In this document: positions 18,813-30,900 of the stretch, piece by piece | Layout: every line of letters begins with the position of its first letter | Position numbering within the stretch: the first letter of the stretch is position 1 | Assembly (NCBI RefSeq): GCF_000003815.2 | Contig: NC_049979.1 | Location: 15,848,393 to 15,912,392 of the forward strand | Source of the DNA: Branchiostoma floridae | Lineage: Eukaryota; Chordata; Leptocardii; Amphioxiformes; Branchiostomatidae | Reading direction: 5' to 3' | Length of the DNA: 64,000 nucleotides | Notes under the pieces: model-generated | Seen by the model: the letters and a program-made list of their open reading frames with translations, nothing else | What the model was told of the DNA's origin: nothing | Databases searched by the model: none | Made by a program: the position numbers and the translations under genes

Positions 18813-18964
18813 TTAAAGGTATGTGTCTTCGCTCGCTGAATCTGCTTCCGAAGCTGTGGAAACCAGGGTGCACAGAGCGTGTCTCCAGCTCTCCATGTCA
18901 TCATTGGAGATGAACATGAAGGTGAAGTCTCGCAGCTCAGTCACTAGGCGGAGGCTGGGTTTTC
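18813..18964 (-). CDS. PKS exon 6: second half of PH-like domain and C-terminus
   Basis: Last coding exon, residues 3064-3113. It follows an acceptor ending CAACAG in phase 1 and ends at TAA 18815-18813. It encodes the later beta strands and C-terminal helix of a PH-like fold: KPSLRLVTELRDFTFMF, then an acidic turn, then the helix DMESWRHALCTLVS with the near-invariant Trp of PH domains. A short acidic Ser-rich tail follows. Confidence 0.75.
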
Positions 18965-21900
18965 CTGTTGAGGGTGAAGTATGTGATATTAGTGGAAGAA
19001 AAATGAATGTTGGGAAAAACTTTGCTATAGTATATTCAGCTGTAGTTACACAGTATCAAATCCAAGCAAAAGCAATCCCACATTAAAGCTGTTGTGAGAT
19101 ATTTTTTATCCCCTACCTTCCGCGGTGAAACACTGTATACTTGAGATGCTTGAAACTGCAAGCTGTCTGGCCTTGTTGGAGCCCCATTGAAGGTTTGCAG
19201 TCGTTTGATTCTCCACCATCAACTGGAGCCTTCTTTTGTGGTTCCGCCCTGTAGATGTCATCTTCCTCACTATGGTACCTATGTGAAACAGGACAATACT
19301 TTAACTGGTCAGCTGAATAGAACGAGTTACGCTTTCCCATCGAGTCACAAAGACTTGGGGATTTGTGCTTTTGCTGCTAATTCTGGTTAATGTTGTATTC
19401 GTAAATAATTTGTTCTGGTCAATGCCTATTACGTTTCTTTGTAGAAAAGGAAGCAAATAAATACTATAGCGTGACTTGATTAGTTTCTATTTTACCATTG
19501 CCATGAACACATGCTTACTGCTATCTAATCAAAGCCTTCTTCTAGGCATCATTAGTATGGTATAAGGTTTTTAAAACTATTCTGTAAAAGAGAGCAGAGA
19601 AAACAAAAGAAATACCATTTTGGAGCTTCCGCAAGAGGTCAGAGTGTAGCAGCTGCAGCTCATCCCTCCCTGGGACTCTGTCACTTCGTCCATTGACCGT
19701 TGGATAGTCAGAATGTCCATTGCTCGTCAGATGTGGTACATCAGTGGGTCGAGGATCGATCAGTCCATGAACTGTTTGCTGTTGTATGGATTTGCCATTC
19801 TTATGTGACACTGCTTGGTTGGGTAACTGATGATTATCCCTGCCGCTCCCGGTATCGGACTTGAAGTTTAAGGCTGTCATTTCTACAGCGTTGATGATTT
19901 CCGAAAGGCTCCATTTGGGGTTTTTAAGACACGTGGAGAGCAACGAGACATAGTCGTCTACCATGCACTGTGCAACTTCTTCGTCAAACAAGGACTTTGA
20001 GTACCGGACGCCACAGGTGATATCTTTCGTGTTGGTGTCTTGGAACAAATGGAGGACAAAATCTTCTGGAAAGTCGTGGTAACCGTTCCTCAGTAATCTA
20101 ACTCTCTTGCCAGTGGCACCATTGAACATTTGGTTCATACTAGTTATGTCGTTTTGAACAACTATATGTTGCATGATGGGCTCCATTGCTGGATGCTTCT
20201 CATACGACACCATTTTCATGATTTCGTCTATCGGAAATATGCCATGTTTCTTGCAATCCTGCAACTTGCGCCAATACTGCCGAATGGTGTCTTGGTAGGA
20301 CTGATCTTTGTTCCCGAAGGAGGCACTCAATGGTAAGTGGTGCTGAAAGAGACCATGGACATTGGAGAATTGTGGAGCTAACATCCTCATGTCAAATGGA
20401 CATGCGATCACGATGTCGTCGTGTTTAGTGTAGATGTGCAGTAGGAGCTGATATGTGGTAGCCATAATACTGTACACAGTGGTGCGAACGGCCTTCGCGT
20501 ATTCCATAAGGCTGCGGACCTGTTCCTTGGGCAGATTAACCTCGAGTGAGCCGCCTCCTGAGCAGAAGGTTGGTGGTCTCGGCTTGGCAAATGGAAGATT
20601 AATGGATGGAATAGTAGGAGGCAGGGCTGCCCTCCAAAACTCTCGTAGCTCCTTCTGGTTCTGCTGAAGGTAGGAGTAGTAGTATTGTATGAAAGCACCA
20701 TACGTCAGTGTTGTCATCGGCTTCTGGAGAGATTTCTTTCTCAAATTTGATTTCATGATTTGTGCAAAGTCCCTAAATAGTATGTTGAAACTGGTTGTAT
20801 CTGTTGCGATGTGATGTAAGACAAGTCCAACCACAGCACTCCTATTTCCAGTGGGGGCAACAATGCACCTTGCTGGATACTCCTTGTTCAGGTGGAAGGG
20901 CACTTTGGTTCTCTGGAACACCTCTTCTTCGGCCTCGTTCTCTTGATACCCAGTCAATATGTCGATGTCAGTAGCGCCAGCAATTTCGTTGTAGTACCTT
21001 GCCTGCACTCCACTGTGATATTGTGCATCATTCGAGACATGGTAGGTTGACCTCAGTGTCTCATGGCGGTCCATCAGCTGGCGAAAGATGGATCGCCAGC
21101 TTTCGACATCAGCAGGGACATTCTTTGTACGAAACATGACGTACAGATTTGTGTTGCTGAAACGGGGATCTTTCAGTTGGTATTGGAGATACGCAGCTGC
21201 CTTATGTATAACAGGTGCAGACCGGATAGGAGTCATAGCAGTGCTAATCTCGGTCGGACTTGGTTGCATATCGATCACGTTCGGTACGTCTCTGTGGTCT
21301 GATGGTTTCACGATTACACTGTCCTCTTGTAGGATACTAGTGATTTTGTTGAGGACGTCCTGTCTTGAAGATGAGATGAAGAAATGTCCACCCTGCATAA
21401 TGCATTTCCTGAACGCTTGTGTTGGAGCTGATTCATTGAAGGCAACAAGCTTCCATTTTTCAAGCAGGTCTGGGGAGATGAATGGATCATCCTGTCCGCC
21501 GAAAGCAACAACATTACACGGGAGTGGTTCATTGTGCTGGCAGATGTACGACTTGCAGATTGTTATCCCTGCCTGGATACATGGCAACAGACGTCTCAGA
21601 CGAGTCGGGTTGTTAAGAACGGCTTCTGGGAGAAAGGAGAATGCTCTGGCCTCTTCCATGATCTGCTGTGTTCCCGTTGAAGGATCAAACAAAATGGGCG
21701 ATACCCTTAGTTCCTGTGGATGCGGGTAGGGTAGAGATGGAGCATACCATCCTCCAACAAAGAGATGAGAAGGGCATGTACTACCTTCCGCGTGGAGCAA
21801 ATGTGCAACCTCAAATGCTATGAGTGCACCCATACTGTGGCCATAGAATGCAATCGTCTTGTCGAGCATTATCATCTCCATGATTTGAGCCCCGAGCGCG

Positions 21901-27900: not shown

Positions 27901-30900
27901 AAGAGATAATTATATCATTACTTTCCCAAATGTTCCAGCAAATATAAAAAGGTTCAAACATGTTTAAACTTTCATTTTGAAATGTTTAAACAATTTTGAA
28001 CTTAAGTGACTGAAATGTTCTTTTACTCAAAATAGTTCAAACTTACTACAAATATTATTTTAAAACCATCTCGGTGACTTGGAATTGACTCTAATGGATA
28101 ACAAATATCTAAAAATACACATTTACATGCAAGGAAAGGACTATATTTCTTCTTGAGATGTCACTATGATGGAAGTCTTGAATAAGTTGCGATAAAATAT
28201 TAATGGTAAATGCAAAGTGAGAGAATACTGATGGTAGGCTGTTGGTGTTGATGGAGAATTATGATTAAGAGTGAGATATTGATGACATTTTATGCAGTAC
28301 ACAAATCACACAATAATTGTTTGCTGTCAATGCGCATACCCGTATCACGTCGATGAACACTGGATTCTCCAGAGCAAGTTTTCTGGCCATCCCCCACCAC
28401 TGCGTTCCCATCCCTGAGAAGACGAAGGCCATCTTGCCACGCTCGGCTCCATCGGGAACTTTTCCATCCACAGCGGTCTTCAGCTTTTCTTCTTTCTTCA
28501 AGAGGTTGAGCTTTTCAACAGCATCACGAGGCCCGTTGACAACTATTGCTAGTCTTTCTGCATGGTGTTGGTACCGGTTTGCAGCAGTGTACAGGCTCTG
28601 TGAGAAGCGGTCTTCATTGAAAGCTATGGTGTCTGCGATGAAAGAGATCCAATGTTCTATTTGTTCCTTCAAAGCAGCCTTTGTGTTCCCAGACAGGACC
28701 ATGATGGTGTTTGAGTCATGTCTTGTTCCTTCCTTGCCACTGTGAATGGGCCTGTCACAATCAGCTATGGCTGGATGCTGTTCACGAGATGGGGACGCCT
28801 CCAGGATGAGATGAGCATTAGCGCCACCAAAGCCGAAAGAGCTGCAGCCTGCAAGCCTTGTTCCAACCCCCTCCCATTGTACCAAAGAACTGGGAACCTT
28901 AATGTTTAGCATGTCGAAATGTATGTCCGGATTTGGTGATGAAAAGTGCACCACCCTTGGGATCTGGGCTTTACTGATCATGAGTGCCAGCTTGATGATT
29001 CCCGCTACACCTGCAGCGCCCTCCGTGTGTCCGAAGTTGGACTTCACTGAGCCAATGTAGAGAGGTGGATCTTCCTTACTTCGTCCTCTTCCAAGAATCT
29101 GACCCAGCGCATTTGCCTCTGTTCTGTCACCAACCTTGGTACCAGTTCCATGTGCCTCCACATACTGGATACCATGAGGATGTACTTTGGCTGCTGCACA
29201 CGCTTTCTCAACAAGGTCCAGTTGAGCGTCGTAGCTGGGGTTCGCGATGCCTGGTGTTCTCCCATCATTGGTAAGGGTTCCTCCTCTGATGACAGAATAG
29301 ATCCTGTCACCATCTGCCAGTGCTCTTGACAGTGGCTTGAGGACAACTACACCGGCCCCCTCACTTCGGCAATACCCATCTGCAGAGGCGTCAAAGCTCT
29401 TACACTTTCCATCTGGTGACAACATCCCTGCTTGGCAGAAGCCTACAGTGGTTCCTGGCAACAGCATCAAGTTGACACCCCCAGCTATGGCCATGCTGCA
29501 GTCTCCTTTTCTTATAGCTTCACTGGCAAGGTGGATGGAGTACAACGAGGAGGAGCAGGCAGTGTCTACAGAGAAGCTGGGACCATGGAGGTCAAACTCG
29601 TAGGAGATACGGTTGGCCACCATGCATGAGTTTGTGCCAGAGTTTGTGTATTGGCTGATGTTCGAAAAGGGGTTGACGGTCATCATGAGGTATTCACTTG
29701 AAGTAACACCAACGTAAACACCGGTATCGGAGCCACGGAGGGATCTTGGGGGGATTCCTGCATTCTCCAAGGCCTCCCAGGTCACTTCCAGCAGCAGTTG
29801 GATTTGAGGGTCTAGATGGTTTGCTTCATCTGAGGAAAATAGTTTGCATTCACCATTTTTGTTACTAATGTATTTGGTTATCATCGACGCCATTGTAACT
29901 TAAAGATGAAGTATACTATCTTGTACCAATAGCCAAAGTTCGAAGAATTGGATATTTTCATTGAACTCGAACTTATAATCACTCATAGGACAGGTAATAT
30001 GTTCACAACTTGGATGTGAAACCAGTAGTTAGGACTCAAATTCGAAGACTCCTATCGAAACCCATTTTTATACATGTATCAGATGATTTGCGACATACCA
30101 AATACGAGTACCATCCTTATTCAACCCCGACAATTAGGGCAAACACTTGTTCACATACACACACGCAAAATTGATTATACAAATTATTTTCCAACCTTCA
30201 AAATCTGTATCTAATCACGAACATCTCTACCATAGCTCATTTCCTGACTTCTTGACTTTCTCGCCTTCAAAGGTCCTACACTTAACATCCATTGGCATAA
30301 TACCGGTCGGTTTACTGCAATTTCTCAAGCAATGCTAATTTGGCAAATGATCAACGCATCATTTTCTCCAGTTACATGTTGCTGTTACAGCTTACCTTTG
30401 CCACTTCTTCTGTGTAAATTATTTTGTCTCTCTGGTCCTGCTAAAAACATGATATCGTAATTGGAACACACCGCGGAATTGCACGGAGAACAGGCGCGTG
30501 GTTGGAAGGGGGTGCACTATACCGGCCGAACGAAACACGGCACAATTAACTGCCGCTATGTACCTTTATACATCCTCTGTTGTTCCTTTCTTTCCTGTTA
30601 GTAGTTGCACAAAAATCTGCATGAGCATACAAAAAGTCATGACAAAATGGGCGTATACTGACAAGAATTTTCATTTAATTTTGGTCCGTCACAACCGCTA
30701 TGACGTAAAACTTTACTGCTGGCCGTAGCATTAAAAATGGCGGGAAAATGGCGGCGTACGTTCAATTTGACCCATTCAGCCGTAGATCCGGGCGATAATG
30801 CAACGGTTCCTCACACTTTTACACGAGTTGTAGGTCACCAAAAGAAATTCAAGATTGCTGTTGAATCATGCTCGTCTTTTGCCGTGAGCACATGTGATTA

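Follow-up and report, generated by a model that had tools for sequence, protein, structure and literature searches.

In the iterative polyketide synthase (PKS) LovB, the fungal lovastatin synthase, a condensation (C) domain follows the acyl carrier protein (ACP) and is a relic of a lost adenylation (A) domain. In mycobacterial Pks-PapA-MmpL loci, the genes for an iterative PKS, a C-fold acyltransferase and a lipid transporter of the RND (resistance-nodulation-division) type lie side by side. LovB requires the thioesterase (TE) LovG for chain release and for the clearing of wrong intermediates (PMC8374128). In animals, PKSs with and without C domains have been described from molluscs; the chordate survey in that paper names vertebrates and tunicates, and the terms 'cephalochord', 'lancelet' and 'Branchiostoma' have 0 occurrences in it (Lin et al. 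2024, PMC10764717). Branchiostoma 'NRPSs' (nonribosomal peptide synthetases) of the Ebony clade, carrying regular condensation domains, have also been reported (Suring et al. 2023, PMC10531068). Here we describe a PKS gene of the lancelet Branchiostoma floridae, found in a stretch of 64,000 nucleotides (contig NC_049979.1, positions 15,848,393 to 15,912,392 of the forward strand; 'the window'). The analysis confirmed, at the level of sequence, that this gene encodes TE followed by C in one protein. The order proposed in a preliminary description of this DNA was found again: ketosynthase (KS), acyltransferase (AT), dehydratase (DH), degenerate enoylreductase (pseudo-ER), ketoreductase (KR), ACP, TE, C and a pleckstrin homology (PH)-like end, of which the last gives weak sequence matches.

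The gene lies on the minus strand. Open reading frames (ORFs) and splice sites define six exons which, when spliced, give a consistent frame of 3,113 amino acids with one terminal stop, exactly the length stated in the preliminary description; all five introns are of the GT-AG type. The span given there, 18813-29829, holds for exons 2 to 6, but exon 1 falls outside it. This exon was placed by tblastn approximately 16 kb upstream of exon 2, and without it the KS would be short of its first ~80 residues. The exons are as follows.

45557-45803, minus strand: exon 1, inner copy; start codon and N-terminal KS (IVGIGCRYPGG), from tblastn, a GT donor and a phase in frame with exon 2
49392-49640 (blast match limits), minus strand: exon 1, outer copy, a possible alternative first exon with its own GTAAG donor
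28340-29829, minus strand: exon 2; most of KS and the start of AT, from ORF, Pfam and splice sites
27189-27282, minus strand: exon 3; AT segment, from splice sites, matched in the paralogues B2, B3, B4 and B5
19616-26812, minus strand: exon 4, 7,197 bases; rest of AT, DH, pseudo-KR/ER, KR, ACP, TE, C and a linker in one frame
19117-19278, minus strand: exon 5; first half of the PH-like region, from splice sites, matched in all four paralogues
18813-18964, minus strand: exon 6; second half of the PH-like region and the stop, from splice sites, recurring in the paralogues

The outer copy of exon 1 may point to an alternative promoter; the exon 1 match is doubled also at the paralogous copy at 28.87 Mb (B2).

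Splicing of the gene was inferred from the splice sites and the paralogues. Two large ORFs on the minus strand make up most of the protein: a frame of 2,432 amino acids at 19542-26840, which holds DH, pseudo-ER, KR, ACP, TE and C uninterrupted, and one of 544 amino acids at 28265-29899. They are joined via canonical splice sites, together with the small AT exon and the two short 3' exons. The TE-C order is not a splicing artefact, because both domains are in the same exon and in one frame; a stop before the C domain was looked for between them and none is present. It could still be argued that C or the PH-like end comes from another gene, or that transcripts end before them, since retention of intron 4 would end the frame 24 residues on, giving a protein without PH. 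However, the four paralogous TE-C loci have exons 5 and 6 in the same place, bounded by matching splice sites, which argues against their belonging to a different gene, and their ratio of nonsynonymous to synonymous substitution rates (dN/dS) is 0.29 against B3 and 0.27 against B4. Mis-splicing as the source of C or PH was rejected on the shared TE-C frame and the recurring exons, and a gene-model artefact in the wider sense is very improbable.

The Pfam families in the product follow the order KS, AT, DH, KR, ACP, TE and Condensation, with E-values of 2.1e-67 for KS, 1.1e-43 for AT, and 7.5e-16 and 2.9e-14 for the two DH matches. The Pfam search of the product returned nothing from the ER families at E<=1, which fits the reading of this region as a pseudo-ER. 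The domains downstream of AT are located as follows.

24981-25856, minus strand: DH region; Pfam PKS_DH_N and PS-DH, motifs HILDGNVVVP and HPAFMD identical in four paralogues
23379-24293 (approximate limits), minus strand: degenerate ER region, read by eye
22716-23252, minus strand: KR; Pfam KR 1.8e-49
22206-22385, minus strand: ACP (LGLDSL); Pfam PP-binding 1.1e-7
21336-22058, minus strand: TE (GHSMG, GGQDD, GGHFF); Pfam 1.7e-21, motifs kept in four paralogues with one conservative change in B5
19896-21149, minus strand: C domain; Pfam 5.6e-47, best solved NRPS C domain at E 1.6e-21

The KS-AT-DH-KR-ACP set is present with its catalytic motifs, among which AFHS in AT, which we take to be of the malonyl type. 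The motifs are identical or near-identical in the paralogues, apart from the AT of B5, which is unreadable in a gap of 100 N. In a comparison with PDB chains, used as a proxy for published KS models, the KS exon scored 397 bits with CurL, ~350 with Pks13, ~333 with DEBS and at most 282 with mammalian fatty acid synthase (FAS). A FAS-like identity was rejected, as the KS is nearer to PKS structures than to mammalian FAS. By its domains and motifs, the gene is assigned to the animal type I PKSs, and not to the FASs or the animal FAS-like PKSs (AFPKs).

The Condensation match predicted by the preliminary description is clear: PF00668 scores 160.9 bits (curated cut-off 30.6) and aligns over profile positions 28-444 of 456. 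In comparison with solved structures, 42 sequences matched at E<=1, with tyrocidine synthetase 3 as the best (1.6e-21), followed by TomB and gramicidin synthase LgrA, while the C domain of the lovastatin-type mokA came far lower (E=0.5). Sequence comparison thus makes the assignment as an NRPS condensation domain secure. A PapA-type or mokA-type relationship was rejected, NRPS C domains being the best among the PDB matches; of the two origins named earlier, NRPS or PapA-type, the first is the probable one. The domain shares with the canonical C domains of tyrocidine synthetase 3, TomB and gramicidin LgrA the fold family, a near full-length alignment and the HHxxxD motif, which reads HHIATD at ~20799-20816. 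It differs from them in its place after a thioesterase and in that no downstream carrier protein was found. With this motif intact and the domain under constraint, esterification or amidation by C is possible. An AlphaFold model of the C domain from the single sequence had a mean pLDDT of 33 and was not used.

The mollusc enzymes resemble the lancelet gene in combining an animal type I PKS with an NRPS C domain and in having few introns, placed N-terminally. TE before C, a PH-like end and a remnant of an A domain are, however, unmentioned in the section on these PKSs (PMC10764717). The presence of a C domain in an animal PKS is therefore not new, whereas the TE-C-PH order, for which the preliminary description knew of no animal example, was not found in the open-access literature searched. 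When bacterial and archaeal genomes were scanned with two peptide patterns from the C alignment, 41 stretches were returned of which none was confirmed, a weak test that is silent on the origin of C. The TE-C protein matched 562 plasmid records, 0 of them covering >=80% of the query in one place, and the best two-piece matches inspected (H1, H3) lie on separately named genes.

The genome harbours five TE-C loci, all on the contig of the window (C1): the window gene and the paralogues B2 to B5, each with the KS, AT and giant exons and the two PH exons. A genome-wide search with PF00668 found no C domain beyond these five; the search was exon-wise and its count is a lower bound. B2, at 28.87 Mb, shows 98-99% protein identity to the window gene in the two main exons; B3, B4 and B5, at 34.25-34.46 Mb, show ~70-88%. 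An inverse-orientation copy of window positions 14436-45270, in pieces 89-99% identical, is found 13 Mb away at C1:28865809-28885800. B2 may be a recent duplication, or a misplaced allele of the window locus. The HHxxxD motif is kept at all five loci (HHISTD in B4). In comparisons of the window gene with B3, B4 and B5, dN/dS was 0.20, 0.26 and 0.23 for C and 0.17, 0.20 and 0.16 for TE, while the linkers are looser than the domains (0.58, 0.74 and 0.37 for the TE-C linker). For the PH exons the values against B3 and B4 are relied on, that against B5 (0.29) coming partly from a stray alignment. B2 is too similar for dN/dS: with very few changes to count, some domains reach values close to 0.6 or higher. 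An in-frame stop interrupts the ACP region of B4, which may be a pseudogene or reflect an assembly error; assembly gaps are present in B5 (the gap in AT) and in B3 (after exon 1).

Behind C, the giant exon of B3, B4 and B5 holds a further ~400 AMP-binding-like residues (A°), and the PH exons come next; in B3 this region matches AMP-binding at 2.3e-26 over positions 1-377 of 384. The usual A3 motif has glycines and a lysine. As the A3-type stretch of A° reads MTTTTTPTRLV, and lacks these, A° is probably inactive, although it is constrained (dN/dS 0.28-0.32). A search of the genome for A° returned B3, B4 and B5 and, in addition, three other PKS genes at C9:12.87, C9:14.93 and C5:9.37 Mb (together L034 to L036); it found no A° in the window gene or B2. 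In these three genes A° follows ACP with no TE or C between them, an arrangement backed by Pfam in L036, and a PH-like exon follows A° (tblastn E 0.001, 0.051 and 3.5e-4). The simplest history would be that A°-PH is the older tail, that TE-C marks the C1 branch, and that the window gene and B2 lost A°; the A loss at these two loci is inferred. Since three of the five TE-C loci show TE-C-A°-PH, and TE-C-PH looks pruned, C was probably gained together with A, as an NRPS-like C-A pair, and not as a PapA-type add-on. Another PKS gene (L037, C4:29699000-29707999) has a 2,173-amino-acid frame in which a methyltransferase-like stretch and an intact-looking ER were read by eye. The Branchiostoma 'NRPSs' of the Ebony clade, which likewise have an A domain and C domains, are probably B3-B5-like genes, because C domains were found only in the TE-C PKS family; in the passages concerned they are not described as PKSs, and TE, PH and decay of A are unmentioned (PMC10531068).

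The main alternative to a working C domain, only slightly less probable than the preferred reading given below, is that TE releases a free acid and C is the leftover of a former C-A module, as in LovB, kept for folding, dimer shape or docking of ACP. Three of the loci have a degenerate A° and two have none, which is a clear trend of decay; the TE motifs are kept, and dependence on a TE for release is known from the PKS LovB (PMC8374128). The likeness to LovB and LovG, an iterative PKS and the TE needed for its release, has its limits: LovG is a separate protein, whereas here TE is fused between ACP and C, so that C does not follow ACP directly as in a truncated PKS-NRPS of the LovB kind, and a PH-like domain follows. 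Furthermore, a C domain that keeps HHxxxD at five of five loci, is constrained like other catalytic domains (dN/dS 0.20-0.26) and lies far nearer to active NRPS C domains than to that of mokA (E 1.6e-21 vs 0.5) weighs against this alternative.

A complete C-A-T module, which would make the enzyme a PKS-NRPS hybrid, was not found after the PKS part: the window gene lacks A and its only carrier in Pfam is the ACP before TE, and in B3-B5 no carrier domain was seen after the degenerate A°. The C fold normally takes two carrier-bound substrates, and PKSs of such a kind are dimers with two ACPs. C might accordingly link two chains that are both carrier-bound, or attach to one chain an aminoacyl group brought in trans by a separate carrier, after which TE would release the product. 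This is improbable in view of the missing carrier domain after C in the window gene and of the exon-wise genome search, in which no other C domain, and hence no evident ordinary NRPS partner, was found.

The C-terminal region of the PKS may be PH-like, a tentative call on matches that are weak by sequence but consistent across the C1 paralogues. The PH exons of the window gene match PF00169 at 14.8 bits (E=0.042), below the curated cut-off of 25.1, and the window sequence alone had 0 PDB matches at E<=10. PH nevertheless ranks first among the Pfam families in each of the four C1 copies that were spliced (0.042 in B3, 0.021 in B4 and 0.15 in B5), with a best PF00169 score of 15.8 bits, also under the cut-off. 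Among the distant paralogues, L036 matches PH_12 (9.3e-5), Mcp5_PH (3.1e-4) and PF00169 (0.0025), each under its curated cut-off; the first exon of L034 matches PH_12 at 0.025, and that of L035 has no Pfam match. A profile of the four copies had one PDB match, centaurin-delta 1 (E=0.11). A profile to which three distant copies were added, two of them as first exon only, had seven (E 0.038-0.63), all of them PH-type proteins: four are so by name, and the remaining three, centaurin-delta 1 and a pair of Arf-GAPs, are PH-domain chains. Phosphoinositide-binding PH domains have a conserved basic beta1-beta2 motif; the basic stretch of this region, KRR in the window gene and KKL, KKH and RKH in B3, B4 and B5, is not conserved.

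Upstream of the PKS, a gene of the Patched/NPC1-like type, resembling a cholesterol transporter, stands head-to-head with exon 1. Together with further ORFs of this type, flanking the PKS on both sides, it is located as follows.

50492-53499, plus strand: Patched/NPC1-like gene; ORFs 50918-51502 and 51820-53496, Pfam Patched and Sterol-sensing
3632-5608 (minus), 6879-7973 (minus), 50918-53496 (plus) and 57590-60700 (plus): Patched/NPC1-like (sterol-sensing) ORFs, from Pfam

Compared with the PDB, the ORF at 51820-53496 found NPC1 with an E-value of 3.5e-13. The head-to-head arrangement is found at all five TE-C loci, the Patched-like genes at B2-B5 being 60-96% identical to the window copy, and start codons are spaced by 852 bases in the window (outer exon 1), 674 in B4 and 619 in B5. 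At C9:12.85 Mb a Patched-like gene (Pfam 5.9e-35) faces PKS exon 1 at a distance of ~1.8 kb, while at C5 and C9:14.9 Mb no Patched match lies within ~7-8 kb upstream of the PKS. In total the pairing is present at six of the eight loci examined and at one of the three non-TE-C loci. The five TE-C cases do not count as five independent events, because the loci are duplicates of one another.

The pairing invites comparison with the mycobacterial Pks-PapA-MmpL layout. The locus could be a chordate counterpart of it, in which C esterifies or amidates the chain, the PH-like tail sits at the membrane, and the Patched/NPC1-like protein serves as RND exporter from a shared head-to-head promoter. TE-C would then be a design with two exits, hydrolysis for errors and transfer for product, and the decay of the neighbouring A would still be visible in the sister genes. 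This proposal is unlikely: the likeness is one of layout only, with C fused to the PKS, not PapA-like among the PDB matches, and with a Patched/NPC1-like neighbour, and the NCBIfam Pks2 model scores 332 bits against the window PKS where its cut-off is 2400.

The preferred reading is that C offloads the ACP-bound chain to a free amine or alcohol while TE edits, the PH-like end positions the enzyme, and the Patched/NPC1-like protein moves the product or the acceptor; its probability is put at about 0.42. The iterative PKS would condense malonyl units repeatedly, as its AFHS-type AT suggests. Having KR and DH but lacking a working ER, it would build an unsaturated, partly reduced chain. C would transfer this chain from ACP to a freely diffusing amine or alcohol, giving an amide or an ester, and the type II-like TE would clear stalled or wrongly built chains by hydrolysis, in the way LovG serves LovB. 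The enzyme might be held at a membrane, or at a partner protein, by its PH-like end, and the protein encoded by the head-to-head gene might move the product or its lipid acceptor. With A degenerate or absent, and no peptidyl carrier protein seen downstream of C, C would no longer join an amino acid supplied in cis. The solved structures closest to C, such as those of tyrocidine synthetase 3 and TomB, are amide-forming NRPS C domains; this speaks for the preferred reading, as do the kept HHxxxD and TE motifs, the low dN/dS of both domains and the Patched pairing at the five TE-C loci. Several points weigh against it. Constraint is no proof of catalysis, because the degenerate A° is constrained as well; the paralogous families without TE-C evidently manage without both domains; the Patched count covers eight loci, which are not independent. 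Moreover, an intact C need not be an offloader, because LovB keeps its C and yet needs a TE for release (PMC8374128).

Other features of the window are an ORF with four EF hands (calmodulin-like) at 14904-15509 (minus), just downstream of the PKS, and, within intron 1 of the PKS, tandem-repeat arrays of 162-163 bases at 38036-43825 and ORFs at 31466-32638 (plus) that by eye resemble retroelement reverse transcriptase, the second ORF having no Pfam match at E<=0.001.

In the open-access literature searched, no paper was found that deals with TE-C-PH as an order, with the series of A° decay or with the pairing to a Patched-like gene, nor one that by its title concerns a lancelet PKS; PMC2679011 holds one mention, in its reference list. 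Animal PKSs bearing a C domain were thus already known, and the TE-C-PH order, the A° series and the Patched pairing, as read from these loci, appear to be new. Chain release is an open question for most mollusc AFPKs (Lin et al. 2024, PMC10764717). The TE-C PKS family of the lancelet combines two domains of the release type in a single protein, includes sister genes that differ in how far the adenylation domain has been lost, and has a recurrent transporter partner; it would therefore make chain offloading, lipid export and the way in which PKS-NRPS relics evolve testable in one animal.

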